From a virus: 35,303 bases of DNA. Shown here one piece after another: positions 1 to 35,303 of this stretch (within the stretch, counting starts at the first letter, position 1; each line of letters begins with the position of its first letter). The stretch spans positions 1 to 35,303 of IMG/VR virus record IMGVR_UViG_3300043392_000039; one strand, 5' to 3'. The translations under genes were made by a program, and so were the position numbers. The notes beneath the pieces were generated by a model. The model had not been told where the DNA came from. It saw only the letters and a list, made by a program, of their open reading frames with translations, and made no database searches.

Positions 1-127
1 AAAAAAAAAAGCCCTTGCAATAGGATACTTGTATCTATTAAGGTATGAACAAATAACCACCATATAGCACCCCATATAAAGCCCCATATCTTCCACCTAA
101 TGAGCTCAAATAGGTATGCAAGTACAA
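1..127. repeat. Terminal direct repeat, left copy
   Basis: Bases 1-127 are identical to 35177-35303, starting with an A10 run and ending in GTACAA. An exact terminal overlap of this odd length is typical of a de Bruijn assembly of a circular or circularly permuted molecule, so it is probably an assembly overlap, not a biological terminal repeat. The join falls inside a noncoding region, so no gene is split. Confidence 0.95.
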
Positions 128-167
128 AGACATTAACAAAGGATAAATAAGGGCTTAAAATCAATTT
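105..167 (-). repeat. Bipartite noncoding motif, copy 1
   Basis: On the + strand CTCAAATAGGTATG (105-118) and GCTTAAAATCAATTT (153-167) are separated by 34 bases. Reverse-complemented, both blocks recur at 2961-3023 in the same order with exactly the same 34-base gap, although the gap sequence itself has diverged. Conserved blocks at a fixed spacing suggest a two-site protein binding element. A nearby GCAATAGGATA (17-27) also recurs inverted at 2936-2946. Confidence 0.6.
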
Positions 168-207
168 GTTTAGTGTTCTATTGTTTCGGTTAAATAAGGT
201 ACTTATG

Positions 208-230
208 TTATTTAGAATGATTATAAATAA
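208..230. promoter_or_regulatory. Operator-like palindrome, copy 1
   Basis: This 23-bp imperfect palindrome, TTATTTAGA-N5-TATAAATAA, belongs to a family of six related sites. The right arm carries one substitution relative to the consensus TCTAAATAA. It lies in noncoding DNA upstream of the 12-bp repeat array. The symmetry suggests binding by a dimeric DNA-binding protein. Confidence 0.5.
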
Positions 231-319
231 GCAAAAAGGAATAGTTCTAATAGAAAGAAAGAAAAGAAGCAAAAGAAAGAAAGATTAACTCCTTAGGATA
301 CTTTTTTTTTACACTAATT

Positions 320-391
320 AGAATACTTAATAGAATACTTAATAGAATACTTAATAGTGTAATATATAGTATAATTAATAGTGTAATAAAT
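320..391 (+). repeat. Iteron-like array of 12-bp repeats
   Basis: Three exact tandem copies of AGAATACTTAAT (320-355) run without a gap into three related 12-mers: AGTGTAATATAT, AGTATAATTAAT and AGTGTAATAAAT (356-391). Related AGTGTAAT units occur in the opposite orientation at 34683-34703, on the far side of the same noncoding region. Tandem AT-rich repeats of this period resemble initiator-binding iterons. A partition or regulator site is also possible. Confidence 0.6.
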
Positions 392-461
392 TGTAATTGG
401 TAAAAAAAGGAAATATTTTAATTGTGCAAGTATTTAGGAGATGTATTTTTAAAATGTTTCC

Positions 462-484
462 TTATTTAGAATCATTCTAAATTT
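462..484. promoter_or_regulatory. Operator-like palindrome, copy 2
   Basis: TTATTTAGAATCATTCTAAATTT contains a perfect 8-bp inverted repeat, TTTAGAAT-C-ATTCTAAA. It ends 30 bp upstream of the -33 element of the early promoter (515-545), a position suited to controlling that promoter. Confidence 0.55.
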
Positions 485-514
485 CATACTTTTTTAAAAA
501 TAATTTACTTTTCT

Positions 515-545
515 TTTGTATTGTTGTATACGTTAATTATGTTTG
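515..545 (+). promoter_or_regulatory. Early-arm promoter (Bacteroidota type)
   Basis: TTTG (515-518) is followed after 19 bases by TATGTTTG (538-545). This matches the Bacteroidota primary sigma consensus TTTG-N19-TAnnTTTG exactly. The predicted transcript would start near 550 and reach the first early start codon at 578 after a short leader. Confidence 0.75.
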
Positions 546-577
546 TATCGCAATCATTCACAAAAACAAAAAACACA

Positions 578-850
578 ATGAAAAATCAAATAAGCATATT
601 AGACCACAATTGTACCAAAATTGATACAATAGAATTACAAGACTTACGAAAGTATATTACAGATTTTGAAATTAACGAACTTGAAATTTACAGTACAAAA
701 AATGACAATTACTTAACAATTGAGCACAACGGTAAGGGCTGGATATTGACTTCTGAAAATTATAAGAAATTATCCTACCGTTTCCCTCAAGATTCAATTA
801 ATTACAAAATCAAAATTTTAGGCTTAGATTTTATTTTTAACGAAAATTAA
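578..850 (+). CDS. Small early protein of unknown function
   Basis: This 90-residue acidic protein starts MKNQISILDH and I recognise no family. An in-frame ATG lies upstream at 521, but that start would overlap the promoter. The ATG at 578 follows the AAACACAATG context used by many genes in this arm, so I chose it. It is the first gene after the early promoter, a position where phages often keep host-takeover or counter-defence genes; that role is only inferred from position. No membrane segment is visible. Confidence 0.7.
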   Translation: MKNQISILDHNCTKIDTIELQDLRKYITDFEINELEIYSTKNDNYLTIEHNGKGWILTSENYKKLSYRFPQDSINYKIKILGLDFIFNEN

Positions 851-857
851 TAACACA

Positions 858-995
858 ATGAAAAACACAACAAAACGCGAATTAATCGAATTATTTTTAG
901 GTGATGAATCCTACACTAAAAAAGACCTTATCCAATTAGCAAAACAATTAGGGGGGTTACTTATAATTTTAGCCCTTGTTAATTTATTATCTTAA
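858..995 (+). CDS. Tiny membrane protein, 45 residues
   Basis: The ATG at 858 follows TAACACA, 7 bases after the previous stop. The N-terminal half is charged and helical (KRELIELFLGDESYTKKDLI). The C-terminal half, about residues 32-45, is a run of Leu, Ile, Val and Ala that could span a membrane. It is too short for a simple 60-residue cutoff, but its leader and tight spacing match its neighbours. Function unknown. Confidence 0.6.
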   Translation: MKNTTKRELIELFLGDESYTKKDLIQLAKQLGGLLIILALVNLLS

Positions 996-1022
996 TTTTT
1001 TAACCCCTTAAAATATACTATT

Positions 1023-1283
1023 ATGAAAAATTACGCTATCTACGACCAGAAAAAAGACAAAAATTTAAGTCATGTTTTTAATACCATAAAAGAAGCCGAA
1101 ATAAATAATTTATTCCCTGGTAAAAATTATAGCTTTTCGGCAAATAGATTTAAGGAAATTCAGATAGAAAAAAACGGCTTAACTTATATAGCTAATTTAC
1201 AAGATTCTGGATATATAAGCGAAAAAATTCTAATAGGATACTCAAATGAGAGATTAACTCAATTTTATAATTTAACTAAATAA
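1023..1283 (+). CDS. Small early protein of unknown function
   Basis: An 86-residue soluble protein starting MKNYAIYDQKK, rich in Lys, Asn and aromatic residues. I recognise no family. The upstream gap contains AATTTTTTAACC, a variant of the leader element found before the next two genes. It is co-directional and closely spaced with its neighbours, so it is probably part of one early operon. Confidence 0.7.
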   Translation: MKNYAIYDQKKDKNLSHVFNTIKEAEINNLFPGKNYSFSANRFKEIQIEKNGLTYIANLQDSGYISEKILIGYSNERLTQFYNLTK

Positions 1284-1311
1284 ATTTTTAACCCATAAAA
1301 CACGAAAAACA

Positions 1312-1569
1312 ATGCAAACGCAAATAATAGCATATACTTACAATTCATGCAATTCAAAAAAACCTATTCCAGTTTTAGTAAAAAGTTTATCCTACTGGAA
1401 AAATAAAGTATGTAGGCACGAAATTAATACTAATAATATAAATGAATTTTTAGGCACTAAATACAATGAAAATAAGCCCTTTATTTTATCCTATTCAGGT
1501 ACATTAATTAAATCAAATGAAAGGGTTTTTAATGACCAATTTGTGGATTTTATACATATTTCTTATTAA
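1312..1569 (+). CDS. Small early protein with duplicated leader
   Basis: An 85-residue protein with two early cysteines (C13 and a later C near residue 34) and no recognised domain. Its 32-base leader including the ATG (1283-1314) matches the leader of the next gene (1571-1602) at 30 of 32 positions. The two proteins are not obviously alike, so the leader seems to be duplicated as a module independent of the coding sequence. Confidence 0.7.
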   Translation: MQTQIIAYTYNSCNSKKPIPVLVKSLSYWKNKVCRHEINTNNINEFLGTKYNENKPFILSYSGTLIKSNERVFNDQFVDFIHISY

Positions 1570-1599
1570 TAATTTTTAACCTACAAAACACGAAAAACA

Positions 1600-1848
1600 A
1601 TGATAACTAAGGAAAATCTAAAAGAGGTAATTTTATCAATTCCTAAAAAAAGACTTAATCAGGTTTTTAATAACAAAAAAGACTGGTTACTTATTCAACT
1701 ATGTATTTTTAATACTGGTACAAAAGTTTATATCGAAAATAAATATTACCACGAAAAGCATGAAAATTACGCATACCAAACTGGTAATTTATTTTTACAT
1801 AAAGATACATTTTTTGACTTATTGCATGATTTTAATATAAATTTTTAA
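1600..1848 (+). CDS. Small early protein with duplicated leader
   Basis: An 82-residue protein starting MITKENLKEVILS, with a basic helical N terminus followed by an aromatic-rich part (KYYHEKHENYAYQ). I recognise no family. It shares its near-identical 32-base leader with the gene before it. The next start codon lies only 3 bases beyond its stop, which suggests translational coupling. Confidence 0.7.
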   Translation: MITKENLKEVILSIPKKRLNQVFNNKKDWLLIQLCIFNTGTKVYIENKYYHEKHENYAYQTGNLFLHKDTFFDLLHDFNINF

Positions 1849-1851
1849 CTT

Positions 1852-2097
1852 ATGAAATTTTCAACAAAAACAATATTTAAAGAAAACATAGTTTTGTTTT
1901 CAAATGATATATGGGAAATATCTATTTTCCCACAATTGCATGAAATTGTAATTTCAAATAGTAGCGAAATTTATTACGGATATCCTACTAATTGCAAAAG
2001 CAAAATTTTTTGGGATAGTACAAATTTTCCTAAATATTTAGGACAAAAGGCTATAAAATCAATTCGAAAAATTAAAATTAATTCAATATATGAATAA
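1852..2097 (+). CDS. Small early protein of unknown function
   Basis: An 81-residue protein starting MKFSTKTIFKE. A likely beta-rich middle (FPQLHEIVISNSSEIYYGY) is followed by a basic C terminus (KAIKSIRKIKINS). I recognise no family. It begins 3 bases after the upstream stop and overlaps the next gene by 8 bases, so it should be cotranscribed and translationally coupled. Confidence 0.7.
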   Translation: MKFSTKTIFKENIVLFSNDIWEISIFPQLHEIVISNSSEIYYGYPTNCKSKIFWDSTNFPKYLGQKAIKSIRKIKINSIYE

Positions 2098-2272
2098 GGA
2101 TATTTTAATTAATCAAGTAGATATATTAATAGCTGAAAAGAAAAGAAAATTTTCAAATATTGATATTTCGCTACCAAAATCAATAGAAGAAAAAGAATTG
2201 GACAAAAAGATAAATTCTATTTTTTCTCAAATTCAAGAAATTATAAGAAACAAAAGAAAATCAACACTATGA
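2090..2272 (+). CDS. Small coiled-coil-like early protein
   Basis: A 60-residue, strongly charged protein, probably almost entirely helical: MNKDILINQVDILIAEKKRK followed by EEKELDKKINSIFSQIQEI. Its start overlaps the end of the upstream gene by 8 bases and its stop overlaps the next ATG (ATGA type). Function unknown. A short helical adaptor or inhibitor would fit its composition, but nothing in the sequence shows this. Confidence 0.65.
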   Translation: MNKDILINQVDILIAEKKRKFSNIDISLPKSIEEKELDKKINSIFSQIQEIIRNKRKSTL

Positions 2273-2472
2273 AAAATGAATATATAATTTGGGGTATTAA
2301 ACCCGAAAATAATTTTGAAGAAATTTTGTACACAAAAGCGACAAATTTAGGTCAAGCTGAAATAGCATGCTACATGTTAGAAACAAGATACCAATGTAAA
2401 AAATGTCGGATACAAATTTTAGATTTTAGTAATGATTTTAACAAAGATTTTTTAAACGCAATTAATCAATAA
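2269..2472 (+). CDS. Small early protein with Cys cluster
   Basis: A 67-residue protein starting MKNEYIIWGIKPEN, with cysteines in the stretch ACYMLETRYQCKKC. Similar short proteins with an early IWG motif and an alternating alpha/beta pattern occur on Bacteroidota mobile elements, in my recollection, but their function is not known to me. It overlaps the upstream gene by 4 bases. Confidence 0.65.
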   Translation: MKNEYIIWGIKPENNFEEILYTKATNLGQAEIACYMLETRYQCKKCRIQILDFSNDFNKDFLNAINQ

Positions 2473-2476
2473 CACT

Positions 2477-2707
2477 ATGAAGCGTTTCAGAATAAACCCA
2501 AATAATGAAATTAATATTTTCATAAGGTATAAAGGTGAATTAATACTACGAACGGTCTACGAAAAGGGTTTTAATTCAATTAACGATACAGTTAAATATT
2601 CAAAAGGTCTTTTGAGTAATTTGCACAAAAACAAAGGATACCGAATAGAAATAGGAATTTTTAACCTTGACACGGGACAAAGTAAATTTATTAATACATT
2701 CAGTTAA
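2477..2707 (+). CDS. Last gene of the small early operon
   Basis: A 76-residue protein starting MKRFRINPNNE, with a beta-rich appearance (EINIFIRYKGELILRTVYE) and no recognised domain. It follows the previous stop by 4 bases with a TAACACT leader. A strong hairpin terminator begins 4 bases after its stop, so it closes the first early transcription unit. Confidence 0.7.
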   Translation: MKRFRINPNNEINIFIRYKGELILRTVYEKGFNSINDTVKYSKGLLSNLHKNKGYRIEIGIFNLDTGQSKFINTFS

Positions 2708-2710
2708 AAA

Positions 2711-2745
2711 GACACGAAGCCCCAATTTAGGGGCTTTTGTCGTTT
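2711..2745 (+). terminator. Intrinsic terminator of the early operon
   Basis: GCCCC (2719-2723) and GGGGC (2730-2734) pair around the loop AATTTA and are followed by TTTTGTCG. Flanking bases (GACACGAA against TTTTGTCG) can extend the stem with mismatches. It starts just after the stop at 2707. Confidence 0.75.
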
Positions 2746-2782
2746 AAATAGGGGGTATATTAATTTAACCCCTTAATTAAAT

Positions 2783-2824
2783 AGCCCTTTTTGGGCTTTT
2801 CTTATTTATAGCCCTTTGTGGGCT
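2783..2824 (+). terminator. Tandem back-up terminator hairpins
   Basis: Two near-identical hairpins follow the first terminator: AGCCC-TTTTT-GGGCT (2783-2797) and AGCCC-TTTGT-GGGCT (2810-2824), each followed by a T-rich tract. Three hairpins in a row would isolate the early operon from the genes that follow, or mark an RNA processing or folding region. Confidence 0.55.
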
Positions 2825-2960
2825 TTATTTATTTAAAGCCTTACCAATATATCAAGCGAAGCAATTCGAAGCGATACAAGTCAAAAGAAAGGGCAAAAAT
2901 AGGGGTACTTATTAGGGCTTATTAGTAGCCTAAAATATCCTATTGCCTTAATACTTTGAT

Positions 2961-3023
2961 AAATTGATTTTAAGCGACTTTTATAGGTCTAAACATAGAA
3001 ACATATTACCATACCTATTTGAG
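2961..3023 (+). repeat. Bipartite noncoding motif, copy 2
   Basis: AAATTGATTTTAAGC (2961-2975) and CATACCTATTTGAG (3010-3023) are separated by 34 bases. They are the inverted counterpart of 105-167, with identical block order and gap length. It lies 52 bases upstream of the gene starting at 3076. Confidence 0.6.
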
Positions 3024-3075
3024 TGGCTTAAACGCTAAATATAGTACCTTAAATTAAATTTAAACTTTAAAGATT

Positions 3076-3348
3076 ATGAACACAAAGCAAGAAAAACAAA
3101 AAAACTATGAACTAATAGGCTTTATTCAATTCCCAAAACCAAAACCCACACTATTTAGAACAATTCTAAATAAGCTACTTTGGAGTGAAGAAAAAGTGGA
3201 AAAAGTCGCCCATTGGCATTTGGGTAAAAAAGCTGATAGTCCCAGGAATTTTTCGGAAAAAATTCTAAAATTGGTCGGAATCCTTTTGTGGATTATCGTT
3301 GGACTAAATTTAATTATCACAATTTTAATTTATAAAATATTTTTCTAA
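3076..3348 (+). CDS. Small C-tail-anchored membrane protein
   Basis: A 90-residue protein with a polar, Lys-rich N-terminal domain and one long hydrophobic segment at about residues 66-88 (GILLWIIVGLNLIITIL). The topology is that of a tail-anchored inner-membrane protein. Function unknown; superinfection exclusion or membrane recruitment would fit but is unproven. A copy of the operator-like palindrome lies inside its coding sequence at 3151-3173. Confidence 0.65.
   Translation: MNTKQEKQKNYELIGFIQFPKPKPTLFRTILNKLLWSEEKVEKVAHWHLGKKADSPRNFSEKILKLVGILLWIIVGLNLIITILIYKIFF
3151..3173. promoter_or_regulatory. Operator-like palindrome, coding copy
   Basis: CTATTTAGAACAATTCTAAATAA fits the family found in the divergent region, with arms TTTAGAA and TTCTAAA. 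It lies inside the small membrane-protein gene, about 180 bp upstream of the promoter of the ribbon-helix-helix gene. Its presence in coding DNA shows the motif is not just a feature of noncoding base composition. Confidence 0.45.
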
Positions 3349-3354
3349 TAATTG

Positions 3355-3387
3355 TTTGCAAATATTATTAATAAATGTTTACATTTG
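3355..3387 (+). promoter_or_regulatory. Promoter of the regulator gene (Bacteroidota type)
   Basis: TTTG (3355-3358) and TACATTTG (3380-3387) are separated by 21 bases. The -7 element matches TAnnTTTG exactly and lies 25 bases before the start codon at 3413. The surrounding AATGTTTAC and TTGTACAA closely resemble the promoter at 5707-5737, suggesting the two are related or coregulated. Confidence 0.65.
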
Positions 3388-3412
3388 TACAAGAAATCAC
3401 AACAAGAAAAAA

Positions 3413-3601
3413 ATGAAGATTAAAACAGTAGAAAACCCAAAGAAAGCAGGTCGCCCACAAGGTGAACCAACATCGGTAATTTCGGTAAGAATCCCAACTG
3501 CATTAAAGAAGGAAGTAGATGAAAGATTTGGAATCGGTTGGCAAGGAATGTTCAAGGATTTCATTAAGGTTTACTTAATGGATAGAGATTCCAAAATTTA
3601 A
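3413..3601 (+). CDS. Ribbon-helix-helix DNA-binding regulator
   Basis: A 62-residue basic protein. Residues about 20-37 (SVISVRIPTALKKEVDER) fit the beta strand and first helix of CopG/Arc-type ribbon-helix-helix domains. The N-terminal KKAGRPQGEP resembles an AT-hook-like basic arm. Such proteins bind as dimers to short inverted repeats, and the genome carries a family of six TTTAGA-N5-TCTAAA palindromes that could be its operators; that link is inferred. An in-frame TTG upstream at 3356 would start inside the promoter, so the ATG at 3413 is preferred. It has its own promoter and terminator. Confidence 0.7.
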   Translation: MKIKTVENPKKAGRPQGEPTSVISVRIPTALKKEVDERFGIGWQGMFKDFIKVYLMDRDSKI

Positions 3602-3650
3602 TTAGTAGTAGATTGTTTTTCATAGTATAGGTTAAAGGATGATTAATTAA

Positions 3651-3680
3651 AGGGGTGAAAATTTTTTTCACCTCTTTTTC
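3651..3680 (+). terminator. Intrinsic terminator after the regulator gene
   Basis: AGGGGTGAA pairs with TTCACCTCT around an A/T-rich loop, followed by TTTTTC. It lies 50 bases after the stop of the ribbon-helix-helix gene and makes that gene monocistronic. Confidence 0.7.
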
Positions 3681-3730
3681 TCAAAATTATTTTTTCCTAT
3701 TTGAAAAATAAGGCACTTTTTTGAAAATCA

Positions 3731-3738
3731 TAAATTTG
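3731..3738 (+). promoter_or_regulatory. Possible promoter -7 element
   Basis: TAAATTTG matches the Bacteroidota -7 element TAnnTTTG and lies just after the regulator terminator, but no TTTG sits at the ideal -33 distance (the nearest, at 3700-3703, is 27 bases away). If active, transcription would start at or very near the ATG at 3744, giving an almost leaderless message. Confidence 0.35.
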
Positions 3739-3743
3739 AAATT

Positions 3744-3848
3744 ATGAAAAATGAATTGGATGAAATTAATCACAAATTTGTAGCAGTGTGTTATTGGCTA
3801 ATTGCTATAAGTACAATTATTATACTACTTAAATGTTGCGACCTATGA
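3744..3848 (+). CDS. Tiny membrane protein, 34 residues
   Basis: The polar N terminus MKNELDEINHKF is followed by a hydrophobic stretch at about residues 13-29 (VAVCYWLIAISTIIILL) that can span the membrane, and the protein ends KCCDL. Its stop overlaps the next start (ATGA), which supports translation. Function unknown. Confidence 0.5.
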   Translation: MKNELDEINHKFVAVCYWLIAISTIIILLKCCDL

Positions 3849-3991
3849 GCATCTTAAAGAAAATGAAAAAGAAATATTATTCCATTAATAAAAATAATTG
3901 GGATGAAATTGAAAAGCAAAAAGAAATACAATGGGCTTTATCTGATTGGTTAAAAATTAGAGATTATTTAAAATTAAATCAAAGTAAATGA
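3845..3991 (+). CDS. Tiny basic protein, 48 residues
   Basis: Starts MSILKKMKKKYY inside an ATGA overlap with the upstream gene and ends in an ATGA overlap with the downstream one. It is rich in Lys and Trp (NNWDEIEKQ, QWALSDWLK) with no recognised domain. A second in-frame ATG after six residues could be the real start. The chained overlaps are the main evidence that it is a gene. Confidence 0.5.
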   Translation: MSILKKMKKKYYSINKNNWDEIEKQKEIQWALSDWLKIRDYLKLNQSK

Positions 3992-4167
3992 CACCAAAAG
4001 AACAAGCTAAATCATTTTATGTTCAAGCATTAATGCAAGGGTATAATGAAACGATTGCCTTAGAGATGGCAAAGTTTGCAGTTGATAAAGTTATTAATTA
4101 TGGTGAATTAGATAGAATATCAGAAAGTTTTTGGTATGATGTATTAGAAGAACTTGAATCAATGTAA
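3988..4167 (+). CDS. Small acidic helical protein, 59 residues
   Basis: Starts MTPKEQAKSFYVQALMQGYN; the rest is acidic and helical (ETIALEMAKFAVDKV, ESFWYDVLEELES). Family unknown. The start overlaps the upstream stop by 4 bases and the next gene begins one base after its stop, so it belongs to a tightly packed operon. Confidence 0.6.
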   Translation: MTPKEQAKSFYVQALMQGYNETIALEMAKFAVDKVINYGELDRISESFWYDVLEELESM

Positions 4168-5928: not shown

Positions 5929-6573
5929 ATGGCAATTATCGCTAAATCAAGCGGAGGTGGAAGCATCGAACGCAAAGTAGTACCAGCAGGAAACCATGTA
6001 GCAAGATGCTACGGTATGATTCAAATCGGTACAGTAGAACAAGAGTATATGGGTGAGAAAAAGAAACTACATAAGGTTATGGTGGATTTTGAATTACCAC
6101 TAGAAACGGCAGTATTCAAAGAAGGTGAAGAAGCTAAACCTTTTGTTATCTCTAAAGACTTCACATTATCATTCAATGAGAAATCGACATTACGCAAGAT
6201 GTTGGAATCCTGGAGAGGTAAAGCATTTACTGATTCTGAGGCAGCTAACTTTGACATCACTAAATTAGTTGGTGCACCATGTATGCTTAACATTGTCCAC
6301 AAAGCATCTGCCGATGGCACAAAGACTTATGCTAACATAACAGGAATAACCCCTATTCCTAAGGGATTACAATGCCCTGAGCAAGTTAATTCAACTCGTA
6401 TTTTAGCTTACGATTCTTGGAATCAAGATTTGTTTATGACTTTGCCAGAGTGGTTAGCTGATAAGATTAGTGCTACACCTGAGTATAAGGCTAAGTTTGC
6501 AATGGATGCACCTAAGCAAGAAGCATTTAACTTAGATAAAGTAGAGGAAGATTCAAATCCATTGCCATTTTAG
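5929..6573 (+). CDS. Single-stranded-DNA-binding-like replication protein
   Basis: A 214-residue protein. It has a glycine-rich start (KSSGGGS), a beta-rich core and an acidic C terminus ending EEDSNPLPF. That tip closely resembles the acidic tail ending in PF with which bacterial SSB proteins recruit DNA-repair and replication partners. The overall size and pattern recall phage DUF669/gp2.5-like ssDNA-binding proteins, but I did not confirm an OB fold. It is the first large gene after a strong promoter, upstream of the nuclease, loader and helicase, as expected for a protein needed in quantity on single strands. Confidence 0.6.
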   Translation: MAIIAKSSGGGSIERKVVPAGNHVARCYGMIQIGTVEQEYMGEKKKLHKVMVDFELPLETAVFKEGEEAKPFVISKDFTLSFNEKSTLRKMLESWRGKAFTDSEAANFDITKLVGAPCMLNIVHKASADGTKTYANITGITPIPKGLQCPEQVNSTRILAYDSWNQDLFMTLPEWLADKISATPEYKAKFAMDAPKQEAFNLDKVEEDSNPLPF

Positions 6574-7500: not shown

Positions 7501-8022
7501 ATGCAAGAGATTTGGAAGGATATAGAAGGTTACAATGGTGTTTATTGTGTTAGTAATTTTGGCAGAATAAAAAGCACCAATTATAAGAAAACTGGTAAAG
7601 AGAAAATTTTAAAAAAATTCTTATCAGATGGATATAATACTCTATCATTAAGTAAAAATGGCGAATACAAAACCTATCGTGTTCACAGATTAGTTGCTAA
7701 TGCCTTTATTGATAATTCACAAAATAAACCACAAGTAAATCACTTAAATGGAGTTAGAACAGATAATAGGGTTGAAAATTTAGAATGGGTAACCAATAGA
7801 GAAAATGTAATTCATTCTTATGATGTGTTAAAAAGGATTATTACAAAAGAAACAAGAAATAAGATTGCATCATATAAAATGAAAAAAGTATTAGATACCA
7901 AAACGGGTGTAATTTTTTGTTCAACTATTGAGGCATCATTCCATTTAAAATTTGATAAGTTTAGATTGAGAAAAATGCTTAACGGTCAAATTAAAAACAA
8001 AACAACACTAAAATATTTATAA
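7501..8022 (+). CDS. HNH homing endonuclease with NUMOD4 domain
   Basis: A 173-residue protein. Residues 1-25 ([20 protein letters not shown]) form a NUMOD4 DNA-binding module. Residues about 60-105 are the HNH nuclease, with VHRLVANAF (H62), QVNHLNG (N80, H81) and [11 protein letters not shown] (N89, N93). The C terminus (about 127-173) resembles a NUMOD1 helix-turn-helix module. Such enzymes make a sequence-specific nick or break and spread themselves into uninterrupted phage genomes. It is free-standing, inserted between a small gene and the RecE-like nuclease, and a second related copy lies at 9847-10332. Confidence 0.9.
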
Positions 8023-9857: not shown

Positions 9858-10332
9858 ACTAACGGCAATTATACCCAATAGCACCTATATTATTTATTCT
9901 GATGGTAGATTATACAATAATAAGACAGGTAAATTTAAGAAATTCACCAAATCCTCTAATGGATATATGCGTACTCAAATTTTGGTAAATAATAAAGGTG
10001 TAAATTTCTCTCAACATAGACTTATGGCTATATGCTTTATTGACAATCCAAATAATAAACCACAAGTGAATCATATAAATGGTATTAAGCACGACAATAG
10101 ATTAGAAAACTTAGAGTGGGTAACTCAGTCTGAAAATGCAAAACATTCTTTTGCGAATGGATTGCAAAAGGTAACAAAACCTAATAAGAAGGTGGTTGAT
10201 ATGATTACGGGTAAAGTATTTCAAAGTGTAACATTTGCAGCAGAATATTTTGGGGTATCAAGAAGCCACTTATCTAATATGTTAATTGGTAGAGTTAAAA
10301 ATAATTCAAATTTAAGATTCTATGCCAAGTAG
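9847..10332 (+). CDS. HNH homing endonuclease, second copy
   Basis: A 161-residue protein starting MENKLTAIIPN. It carries an HNH core at about residues 55-102: QHRLMAICF (H57), QVNHING (N75, H76), DNRLENLEWVT (N84, N88). A NUMOD1-like module follows (KKVVDMITGKVF, FAAEYFGVSRSHLSNML). Unlike the copy at 7501 it lacks a clear NUMOD4 module and has a divergent N terminus (YIIYSDGRLYNNKTG). The ATG at 9847 is preferred over 9796 because it lies in the repeated start element used by two neighbours. It is free-standing and could mobilise itself between phages. Confidence 0.85.
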   Translation: MENKLTAIIPNSTYIIYSDGRLYNNKTGKFKKFTKSSNGYMRTQILVNNKGVNFSQHRLMAICFIDNPNNKPQVNHINGIKHDNRLENLEWVTQSENAKHSFANGLQKVTKPNKKVVDMITGKVFQSVTFAAEYFGVSRSHLSNMLIGRVKNNSNLRFYAK

Positions 10333-10823: not shown

Positions 10824-11052
10824 GGTATTAGAGATAAGAGATAGATTTTACGCACAAGAAAAAAAATGGTTTGTGTGGATGTATCTTGATAATAATTTTC
10901 CAGAATTTATTTGGTCATCATATAGAGATTATCATGCTTCATGTGATTCAATAAATGAAGCCGAATTAATCATAAAGCGTAGAATTGAATATTTAATAAA
11001 AAATAACCCAATTGTAAAGATTCACATATACAACAAACACAATGAAAACTAA
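10804..11052 (+). CDS. Small basic protein, unknown function
   Basis: An 82-residue protein with an aromatic-rich middle (KKWFVWMYLDNNFPEFIWSS) and a helical C terminus (NEAELIIKRRIEYLI). I recognise no domain. It overlaps the upstream gene by 20 bases and the helicase-loader-like gene by 11. Confidence 0.65.
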   Translation: MKKRKYRVLEIRDRFYAQEKKWFVWMYLDNNFPEFIWSSYRDYHASCDSINEAELIIKRRIEYLIKNNPIVKIHIYNKHNEN

Positions 11053-11518
11053 ACAATTAGCACTCGGTGATTTCTTGCAAGAATTATTAAGCAAGTTTCA
11101 CTACGCAATCAAGGACCAAGAATTACTTGATTCACTTAATGAAACAAAGTTAAGTGCAACGGAAGGGTTAGAATTAATTTACCATATTGATAAGCCTTTA
11201 GCAATGCCACAATTACCCAAAGTGAGTGCCCAAGAAATACTCAAAGAGGTCAATGAAAAAGAGGAGGCATTTAGCAAGTTTTGGAATCTTTATGACAAAA
11301 AGATTGGGACAAAGGATGCAAAAACAAAGTTTTTAAAGCTACCAATGAAAGATATTGAGAAAATATTTGAAACTTTGCCACACTATTTAAAATCAACACC
11401 AGATATTAAGTTTAGAAAACACCCCGTTACATATCTTAATCAACGCACTTGGGAAGATGAAGGATATATGCCAAGAGGCATAAATAGACCAAATGTGGCG
11501 AACCCATTTAAGTTTTAG
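11042..11518 (+). CDS. Replisome organiser / helicase-loader-like protein
   Basis: A 158-residue protein. Its C-terminal region (about 74-140) matches the domain common in phage replication initiators next to DnaB: FSKFWNLYDKKIGTKDAK, LPHYLKSTPDIKFRKHPVTY and NQRTWEDE. Such proteins load or recruit the helicase at the origin. The N-terminal part is shorter than in full DnaD-type initiators and lacks an obvious winged-helix motif, so origin binding may lie elsewhere. It immediately precedes the helicase gene. Confidence 0.65.
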   Translation: MKTKQLALGDFLQELLSKFHYAIKDQELLDSLNETKLSATEGLELIYHIDKPLAMPQLPKVSAQEILKEVNEKEEAFSKFWNLYDKKIGTKDAKTKFLKLPMKDIEKIFETLPHYLKSTPDIKFRKHPVTYLNQRTWEDEGYMPRGINRPNVANPFKF

Positions 11519-11532
11519 TAAACAACAACACT

Positions 11533-12891
11533 ATGAAACAATTAGACAAAGTAGCATTTACCGATTTAGATGCCGAAAGGGAAATCTTAGCCCTTTTGAT
11601 GAATCACCCAAGCTACACAAAAGACATTCAAAAGATTATCACTCCCGATGTGTTTCACTTCGGGACAACTAAAGCCGTTTATTTGACTTGTGTTGAATTA
11701 TTTTCCGAAAAAGGCACATTCACACAATCGGATATTATTATACGCTTAAAATCAAAAGGAAGCAATGATTGGGTAGATGTAATGATGGCATCAACCACAA
11801 GAACTCCATTAAATGCCCAAGAGGTAATTCTATACTTAGCTGAATTGAAGGGTAAGAGGGATTTATTAGCCCTTAGTCGTGAAGTAAATAACTCATTGGT
11901 CAATGGTGAAGATTATTTTACAATTGTGGATAAGATTAACAGTGTTACTTCAAATGAATTAATACAAAACGATACTAATGAGGTATTGGACATGAAGCAT
12001 GCATTAAGTGATGCTATTAACAACATTGGAGATGTAATGACTAATGGTAGCTTATCGGGAGTTCCAACGGGTTACAATATTCTTGACAATGTTACAGGTG
12101 GTTGGTTAAAAGGCAATGTTATCTTGTTTGCAGCACGACCAGGACAAGGGAAAACTATTTGCTTACTTGAACATTCTCGGTGTGCAGGGGAAATGAATAA
12201 GAAGGTATTATTCTTATCATTAGAGATGCCTGTGGTGTCATTAGTATATCGTATGATTAGTGGGCAATTAGATGATTCTACTCCTTACTCAAAGATTAAA
12301 ACAGGTCGTATAGACATTAACCAATTTAATAACATTCAAAAAGAGGCAGTAACTAAGTTAGAAAAGCTACCAATTACTTGGTACGATGGGGCTAACCGAG
12401 ATATTAATTACCTATCCACATTAATACAAAAGATTGTTAGGGAAAAGAATATTGATATGGTTGTTGTGGATTATCTACAACTTATCACCGACAATTCTAT
12501 TCGTTCAAATGATGAAACGGCAGTTGTGGGCTCAGTATCAAAAAAGATTCAACAATTAGCCAAGAAATTAAACATTCCATTCCTTTGTGCAGCACAATTA
12601 AACCGACAATCAGAGGGTAGAACATCACACCGACCAAAGCTATCTGATTTGCGTTCTTCGGGTCAGATAGAACAGGATGCTTCGGTTGTTATTGGCTTGT
12701 ATCGTGATGACTATTATAAGTACGAAAAAGCAAAAGAAGAAGGTAATCCTAATGTAGTTTATGATAATGTTATTGAGTACATATTCATGAAGAATCGAGA
12801 TGGGGATACAAGGACTGCTGATTTATATATTGATGTGGCAACGAGTAAGATTAGGGAAACTAACCCAGCTTATGTTCCACCAAGTTTTTAG
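11533..12891 (+). CDS. dnaB: DnaB-family replicative helicase
   Basis: A 452-residue protein. The N-terminal domain starts DLDAEREILALLMNHP, as in DnaB. The RecA-like motor has Walker A ARPGQGKT (201-208), SLEM (229-232), Walker B VVVDYLQL (310-317), AQLNRQ (354-359) and the C-terminal SDLRSSGQIEQDA (371-383) with the arginine-finger region. It is a hexameric 5'-3' helicase that unwinds the fork using ATP. Length and motifs are normal for the family, with no sign of an inserted intein. No separate primase or polymerase is recognisable, so replication presumably relies on host enzymes. A terminator follows 25 bases later. Confidence 0.95.
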   Translation: MKQLDKVAFTDLDAEREILALLMNHPSYTKDIQKIITPDVFHFGTTKAVYLTCVELFSEKGTFTQSDIIIRLKSKGSNDWVDVMMASTTRTPLNAQEVILYLAELKGKRDLLALSREVNNSLVNGEDYFTIVDKINSVTSNELIQNDTNEVLDMKHALSDAINNIGDVMTNGSLSGVPTGYNILDNVTGGWLKGNVILFAARPGQGKTICLLEHSRCAGEMNKKVLFLSLEMPVVSLVYRMISGQLDDSTPYSKIKTGRIDINQFNNIQKEAVTKLEKLPITWYDGANRDINYLSTLIQKIVREKNIDMVVVDYLQLITDNSIRSNDETAVVGSVSKKIQQLAKKLNIPFLCAAQLNRQSEGRTSHRPKLSDLRSSGQIEQDASVVIGLYRDDYYKYEKAKEEGNPNVVYDNVIEYIFMKNRDGDTRTADLYIDVATSKIRETNPAYVPPSF

Positions 12892-34682: not shown

Positions 34683-34703
34683 ATTACACTATATCATTAC
34701 ACT
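34683..34703 (-). repeat. Inverted AGTGTAAT repeats
   Basis: Two ATTACACT units (34683-34690 and 34696-34703) are 13 bases apart and are the reverse complement of the AGTGTAAT units at 356-363 and 380-387. TAGTATACTA and TAGTATAATA follow at once. It looks like the opposite-facing counterpart of the 12-bp array. Confidence 0.5.
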
Positions 34704-34746
34704 AATAGTATACTAAATAGTATAATAATATAATATATATCTTTTC

Positions 34747-34769
34747 TTATTTAGAACGAATCTAAATAA
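34747..34769. promoter_or_regulatory. Operator-like palindrome, best copy
   Basis: TTATTTAGA-ACGAA-TCTAAATAA has perfect 9-bp arms, the most symmetrical member of the family. It lies 160 bp upstream of the small terminase start. Confidence 0.6.
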
Positions 34770-34824: not shown

Positions 34825-34847
34825 TTATTTAGACTCAATCTTAATAG
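34825..34847. promoter_or_regulatory. Operator-like palindrome, degenerate copy
   Basis: TTATTTAGA-CTCAA-TCTTAATAG keeps the left arm intact and a weakened right arm. It lies 78 bp from the best copy. Confidence 0.35.
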
Positions 34848-34873: not shown

Positions 34874-34896
34874 TTATTTAGATTCAGTCTAATTTC
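34874..34896. promoter_or_regulatory. Operator-like palindrome over late -33 region
   Basis: TTATTTAGA-TTCAG-TCTAATTTC keeps the full left arm and a TCTAA right arm. It overlaps the expected -33 region of the possible late promoter at 34859-34866. Confidence 0.45.
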
Positions 34897-34965
34897 TTTG
34901 TTTTTACCTAATTTTTAAATGCGGTGTTTACAGGTATTACCCATATTTTCCTAGGTTTTTTTTGT

Positions 34966-34990
34966 TGGGTACCCCGACCAGACCTACCCA
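34966..34990. other. Hairpin in GC-richer patch
   Basis: TGGGTA (34966-34971) and TACCCA (34985-34990) pair around CCCCGACCAGACC. It lies between two CCTAGG sites (34950-34955, 35013-35018) in a patch that is richer in G and C than its surroundings. A packaging (cos or pac) role is possible from its place upstream of terS, but nothing confirms it. Confidence 0.35.
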
Positions 34991-35176
34991 CCCCCTTTTG
35001 CTCCACGACTTTCCTAGGTGCACCCCTCTTTTGCCCACAATAACACACACAAACACACAATAACATAGTTTAAGTAGTTACAAAGGGTGTGCCTGGGTTG
35101 AATAGGTGGTAGTGGGAGGGCAACCCACAAGGGTTTTACTCTTATTACTTAACTATTTTAGCCTTGTATCCATGAG

Positions 35177-35303
35177 AAAAAAAAAAGCCCTTGCAATAGG
35201 ATACTTGTATCTATTAAGGTATGAACAAATAACCACCATATAGCACCCCATATAAAGCCCCATATCTTCCACCTAATGAGCTCAAATAGGTATGCAAGTA
35301 CAA
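35177..35303. repeat. Terminal direct repeat, right copy
   Basis: Identical to bases 1-127. Removing one copy gives a circular unit of 35,176 bp. Confidence 0.95.

Follow-up and report, generated by a model that had tools for sequence, protein, structure and literature searches.

In phage P4, two sites lying some kilobases apart, ori and crr, consist of iterons that are both bound by one initiator, the alpha primase-helicase, and the second site works in either orientation. In phage SPP1, the replisome organizer gp38 binds oriL and oriR, which are built of direct repeats and lie about 13 kb apart in a circular genome (PMC6316719). Here, we describe two copies, R1 and R2, of a conserved non-coding element of about 105 bp in the IMG/VR virus record IMGVR_UViG_3300043392_000039, whose whole stretch of 35,303 nucleotides was analyzed (hereafter, the window). 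The genome is circular (35,176 bp) and closed by a 127-bp terminal repeat (1–127 = 35177–35303), with late genes, such as those for terminase and portal, running leftward and early genes running rightward. Among cultured phages, those of Flavobacterium and Bacteroides are closest by TerL, with less than 60% identity, and judging from these the host is likely a member of Bacteroidota. The literature listings returned by our searches contained no origin or operator for this phage group, and we know of none.

The initial annotation had pointed to a motif, CTCAAATAGGTATG-N34-GCTTAAAATCAATTT, present twice in inverted orientation. Both copies were exact (105–167 and 2961–3023) with a gap of 34 bp in each, and the two matches in the window compared with none in 100 dinucleotide-preserving shuffles. 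The gap had diverged between the copies as described, with 10 of 34 positions identical, approximately the level expected by chance for this composition (0.29), and the copies do flank a block of small genes (578–2707). A third block, GCAATAGGATA, was also said to be shared; it does occur near each copy in inverted orientation (17–27, plus strand; 2936–2946, minus strand) and averaged 0.02 occurrences per shuffle, but it is not part of the fixed unit. In copy 1 it is 77 bp outward of block CTCAAATAGGTATG, and in copy 2 14 bp outward of the other block; it was not found in the locus of one relative (L005) with up to one mismatch allowed. We rejected it as a component because of these differences in order and spacing and the lack of a match in L005. 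The terminal repeat reprints block 1 at 35281–35294 and GCAATAGGATA at 35193–35203, which are not additional copies.

Across relatives, the two blocks proved to be the best-conserved pieces of the longer element, an imperfect dyad whose two arms are inverted half-sites, each about 29 bp long (consensus ATAnnTTG..T.TAAG..A.T..TAGG), with a centre of about 20 bp between them. R1 (71–175, minus strand) is located in a non-coding region of about 1.2 kb that separates the leftward late genes from the divergent, rightward early genes, with block CTCAAATAGGTATG in the inner part of one arm (105–118) and block GCTTAAAATCAATTT in the outer part of the other (153–167), both exact and on the plus strand. 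R2 (2952–3056, plus strand) is located between the small-gene block and a gene encoding a small protein with a hydrophobic C-terminus (3076–3348, plus strand), 20 bp upstream of the latter, with GCTTAAAATCAATTT at 2961–2975 and CTCAAATAGGTATG at 3010–3023, both exact and on the minus strand. The window R1 and R2 were 54% identical over the whole element. We aligned the R2 region of the window with those of 17 relatives (18 sequences), anchored on the start of gene 3076–3348; one anchored stretch, L066, was left out, as it belongs to a contig without the R2 stretch. The roughly 100 bp upstream of this gene were conserved in all 18 aligned sequences, with the two motif blocks in the arms, and the spacing was constant except for a 2-bp deletion in the gap region in four. 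Conserved letters were also present within the 34-bp gap, at the arm ends and in the centre (AAACATATTACC), contradicting the notion of the gap as filler. In addition, R2 (model positions 5–88) matched its reverse complement (22.1 bits, E = 6.8e-5).

In nine pairs of arm positions, the letters were complementary and did not vary among the 18 R2 sequences; many other pairs came near that. Arm positions paired in 66.1% of cells, compared with 65.9% in shuffles and 36–47% in slid versions, and the covariation score of the arms over the 18 sequences was not in excess of that of shuffles (0.115 vs. 0.118). The fixed letters in both arms, together with variable positions that do not covary, indicate a DNA–protein site rather than an RNA. 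The best explanation of these sequences is that R1 and R2 consist of conserved half-sites of a predicted DNA-binding protein, acting as a dimer or a dimer of dimers. Selection on a protein–DNA architecture, one of the options raised initially, is thus supported by the comparison across relatives.

Relatives were collected by a TerL search of IMG/VR, which gave 53 loci, and whole or partial records of 14 contigs were examined after rotation to the TerL start. The initial annotation had proposed searching relatives for both blocks with 34-bp spacing. Of 23 relative records, only G010 had the exact letters with this gap, in its R2, so that the literal pattern alone would look like a one-off, but the longer element was conserved. 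An exact-pattern scan of IMG/VR yielded no match, an unreliable absence, since the IMG/VR record G010 has one and near records were possibly excluded. Using a profile of R2 only, we found an R1 match in the divergent non-coding region of 28 of 30 records (window R1, 18.9 bits), 24 of which exceeded the best score in a control of 1.12 Mb of first-order simulated sequence (10.0 bits); R1 fell below the control score in L031, G010, L013, and G011, and no R1 match was obtained in L003 and L041. A combined R1+R2 profile is not independent, as it includes most of the R1 sequences it finds. With this profile, the window R2 scored 75.5 bits and the window R1, itself in the profile, 51.4 bits (E = 4.4e-14). 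Among close-relative contigs, which include several near-copies and hence give counts of non-independent events, R1 was detected in 33 of the 35 with at least 1.1 kb upstream of TerL, 1,074–1,302 bp from the TerL start, and full-length R2 in 16 of the 19 with at least 4.3 kb upstream of TerL. The two R1 misses were L041 and L031, the latter still having a 14.0-bit match at the correct place. The distance between R1 and R2 was 1,949–3,480 bp in 19 records, and the R2 profile gave no match with E < 0.1 in the rotated records besides R1 and R2. Two further exact-pattern scans of IMG/VR gave 31 newly numbered loci (several from known contigs), 17 of which contained the full-length element; all 17 encode proteins of this uncultured phage family in the stretch covered, an 18th family locus was cut at its edge, and the 13 loci without clear family proteins contained nothing above 10.6 bits. 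Beyond the family, no R2 match above chance was found in cultured phages (best E = 0.4), and the distant TerL relatives L048, L050, and L053 had no element above 14 bits within the stretches covered. A 104-kb IMG/VR contig (L051, also G014) carries a family terminase, R1, and a partial R2, with its remaining family-like genes far off. It may be a larger relative or a chimera; a concatemer was rejected, as the compared stretches did not match each other.

The inverted layout of the two copies did not hold as a rule. R2 had the same orientation in all 18 matches, whereas R1 was oriented like R2 (plus) in 25 of the 33 relative contigs having it, including L013 with a TerL identity of 96%, and was minus in eight contigs and the window, all with TerL identities of at least 96%. 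The layout seen in the window is therefore a trait of one clade. As R1 is flipped in one clade and R2 never, the orientation of R1 seems irrelevant, and the element apparently functions in either orientation. An inverted duplication had also been suggested, and a recent one is contradicted by the identities: R1 and R2 were no closer within genomes (0.573) than between genomes (0.569; permutation p = 0.29, 16 genomes; 0.29 expected from composition), by which recent gene conversion was rejected as well. Judged from these values, R1 and R2 are ancient paralogues held by constraint. For inverted repeats in general, the lesson is that an exact repeat can be just the most conspicuous portion of a longer conserved element while its inverted layout is specific to a clade.

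We tentatively favor, with reservations, the reading of R1 and R2 as a pair of sites at which an initiator binds, forming a two-site replication origin similar to SPP1 oriL/oriR. We put it first because the combination of helicase, initiator-like, and recombination genes with two distant sites most resembles SPP1. The early block encodes a DnaB-like replicative helicase (11533–12891, plus strand; phrog_19, E = 1.3e-79) and, immediately before it, a 158-amino acid protein resembling the C-terminal part of phage replication initiators (11042–11518, plus strand; phrog_270 “replication initiation protein”, E = 4e-12), a candidate initiator or helicase loader, as well as a RusA-like resolvase, a RecE-like exonuclease, and an SSB-like protein. 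As in P4, two sites lie kilobases apart, although no alpha-type primase-helicase was identified here. Repeated initiator-type boxes occur at two distant places as two long dyads per genome, inverted here and direct in SPP1. The SPP1 system shares two distant sites of similar build, possibly comparable AT-rich DNA, one intergenic site beside accessory genes, and a phage DnaB-type helicase with recombination genes, but its sites lie farther apart than the 2–3.5 kb or so found here (PMC6316719). In the proposed mechanism, R1 and R2 would each be bound by a protein acting as a dimer or a dimer of dimers; the main origin would be at R1, which sits in the divergent non-coding region and has a very AT-rich segment on each side. 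R2, approximately 2–3.5 kb away and likewise beside an AT-rich segment, would either serve as a second origin or act as an auxiliary site, looping to R1 or stalling forks. Loading of the phage's own DnaB (11533–12891) would then fall to the initiator, perhaps together with the 158-amino acid protein.

Among the six least stable 100-bp windows of the stretches covered, all 12 genomes had one to the left of R1, one to the right, and one 302–374 bp after the R2 start. The cumulative GC-skew minimum fell between R1 and R2 in all six circular genomes, a position confounded by the switch of gene direction there. The flip of R1 suits a site without direction and was counted for the origin reading, as was the lack of a conserved promoter at R2 in a scan that does detect elements upstream of other genes (see below). 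Another protein (5929–6573) matches the NCBIfam “phage replication initiation protein, NGO0469 family” (E = 7e-67), but we did not count it as an initiator: its predicted fold is OB-like (pLDDT 68) and SSB-like, with SSB PrgE as the best PDB match (E = 9e-4, TM 0.32). The family name, which traces to weak similarity (PMC1931599), may be wrong, to go by this model.

Several observations weigh against a two-site origin. The similarity of the 158-amino acid protein to initiators is confined to their C-terminal part, its predicted structure is of poor quality (mean pLDDT 59), and no initiator with a recognized DNA-binding domain was found among the proteins searched. Promoters, too, lie next to the AT-rich windows, as does the coding stretch for the hydrophobic tail in the case of R2, and gene direction switches where the GC skew turns. 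R2 has a constant orientation and place just upstream of gene 3076–3348, as expected of a regulatory site. The evolution of R1 and R2 is not concerted and so gives no indication that both co-evolve tightly with a single protein. Additionally, L041, a diverged relative (TerL 82%), has no apparent R1 and keeps one degenerate R2 half; R2 is only partial in L031 and L051; and L033 has none above 14 bits. These four contigs speak either against a strictly essential role or for replacement by diverged forms.

The possibility that R1 and R2 are paired operators or enhancer-like sites is real but carries less of our confidence. A dimeric early regulator would bind both, perhaps with looping of the DNA across the island, and switch gene 3076–3348 and the divergent early and late genes. 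R2 is always in plus orientation, directly upstream of this gene and behind three terminator-like hairpins (2716–2824, plus strand; nine such sites in 1–4000 vs. a shuffle mean of 1.2), which separate it from the preceding genes, so that the gene probably needs a nearby start. R1, for its part, lies between divergent promoters, and a conserved ribbon-helix-helix (RHH)-like DNA-binding protein is encoded shortly downstream of R2 (3413–3601, plus strand; 17 of 18 relatives). This protein matches the VapB antitoxin weakly, short of the curated cut-off (E = 3.5e-4), and has an N-terminal KKAGRP; in its alignment KAGRP was invariant and KKAGRP present in most, and we take the KAGRP motif to resemble an AT-hook. 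No credible match emerged when PDB sequences were searched with the alignments of the RHH-like, initiator-like, and SSB-like proteins.

We scanned 18 genomes for promoters of the Bacteroidetes type (TTG-N17-22-TAnnTTTG). A promoter was found upstream of the RHH gene in 17 (window −7 element, TACATTTG at 3380–3387). All 18 had a leftward −7 element ahead of the late genes (with TTG in six), and nine had an early rightward promoter. Conversely, no TAnnTTTG-type promoter was conserved at R2 in these genomes, where two perfect matches differed in place and strand; a promoter at R2 was rejected on this ground, which counts against the operators, although a phage-specific type of promoter could still serve there. 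A sigma-70 scan gave no excess over shuffles, with 22 found and a shuffle mean of 25.5. Furthermore, the recognizable promoters have a different palindrome nearby, TTTAGA-N5-TCTAAA, of which the window holds seven with at most one mismatch (0.49 expected), including 211–227, 465–481, 3154–3170, 34750–34766, 34828–34844, and 34877–34893, several of them near such promoters. All 18 records examined had the pattern in their non-coding region. The TAGA box of Arc has an N5 spacing. These palindromes are likely operators of the RHH-like protein comparable to Arc TAGA boxes: they resemble the operators of this RHH repressor (PMC12645479), and an RHH-like protein with palindromes near promoters is the arrangement found here. 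Unlike these TAGA-type palindromes, from which they are separate, the R1 and R2 dyads have a different and much longer motif. The flip of R1 also fits a directional regulatory site poorly, although a symmetric operator could tolerate it.

It is unlikely that R1 and R2 mark boundaries of gene exchange, either as conserved recombination anchors for swapping island genes or as recombinase recognition sites. Most of the island did prove variable. Its eight tested open reading frames (ORFs; 578–2469, plus strand) were found by tblastn in 0, 2, 2, 0, 0, 0, 1, and 1 of 18 relatives, so that, of the nine ORFs from R1 to R2, all but one occur in 0–2 relatives, and the flanks are better conserved: the first eight ORFs after R2 were found in 9, 17, 0, 6, 14, 15, 14, and 12 of 18, with some contigs ending early. 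The last gene of the segment (76 amino acids; 2477–2707, plus strand) is more conserved (14 of 18 relatives, 27–47% identity). However, the identity of about 57% between R1 and R2 is too low for a homologous anchor within a genome, and the variable genes stand about 400 bp from R1 and about 370 bp from R2, with the conserved gene and the terminators intervening. In known invertible segments, inverted repeats flank the segment, as the copies in the window flank a gene block; unlike in such segments, R1 is not inverted relative to R2 in most relative contigs. An invertible island was rejected, as no ORF arrangement in 12 genomes indicated an inverted form; the island ORFs run rightward, and minus-strand ORFs of at least 60 amino acids were present in three genomes, overlapping rightward ORFs. 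No recombinase was found among the early and other proteins searched, a set that most late genes fall outside.

A packaging or partition site is very improbable: the terminase genes are no more than about 1.1 kb from R1, but R2 is almost 3 kb further on, no partition protein was found among the proteins searched, and a more strongly conserved stretch by the terminase genes (~34950–35010) is the likelier packaging site. This stretch, near the small terminase gene and aligned in 11 sequences including the window, contains a conserved T-run, GGGTACCC, and CCCCCTTTTGCTC, and is a possible packaging site. A structured RNA or hairpin, such as a leader RNA, a primer, or a single-strand origin, can be given hardly any credence: the window R2 could form an imperfect hairpin at 2969–3032 and some R2 orthologues fold as RNA at about −20 to −24 kcal/mol, but the RNAalifold consensus for the R2 alignment was −0.23 kcal/mol, single-stranded DNA folding was unremarkable (z = −1.34 and −0.47 for R2; 0.22 and −0.08 for R1), and Rfam gave no match in the window at the gathering threshold. 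The RNA architecture entertained initially thus found no support; the R2 arms of the window pair and a few relatives looked compensatory, but the full count revealed no covariation beyond shuffles.

Returning to replication, we can extend the two-site origin to a broader and more doubtful proposal, in which the family would have its own orientation-tolerant two-site replication control, with two long dyads of tandemly contacted half-sites, bound by an initiator, bracketing a hypervariable cassette of small early genes and accessory genes being kept and exchanged between the origin arms. If origin sites do bracket the island, the phage would keep its early genes swappable without breaking replication control. 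The two 105-bp sites at fixed places also offer a handle for finding the binding protein and for mapping the start of replication.

Other repeats were noted around these sites and elsewhere. AT-rich arrays of the word TAGTRTAMT are located on both sides of R1 (34683–34726 and 355–387) and account for eight of the 10 matches in the window on either strand, where 2.2 would be expected in all; they are either iteron-like or promoter-related. To the right of R1, the non-coding region of four relatives (L014, L016, L017, and G006) is very AT-rich apart from a GC-rich hairpin, GCCGC-nnn-GCGGC, beside a five-codon ORF. Finally, a 139-bp direct repeat (72% identity) at 7684–7822 and 10015–10153 lies inside two HNH endonuclease genes, which are related copies.

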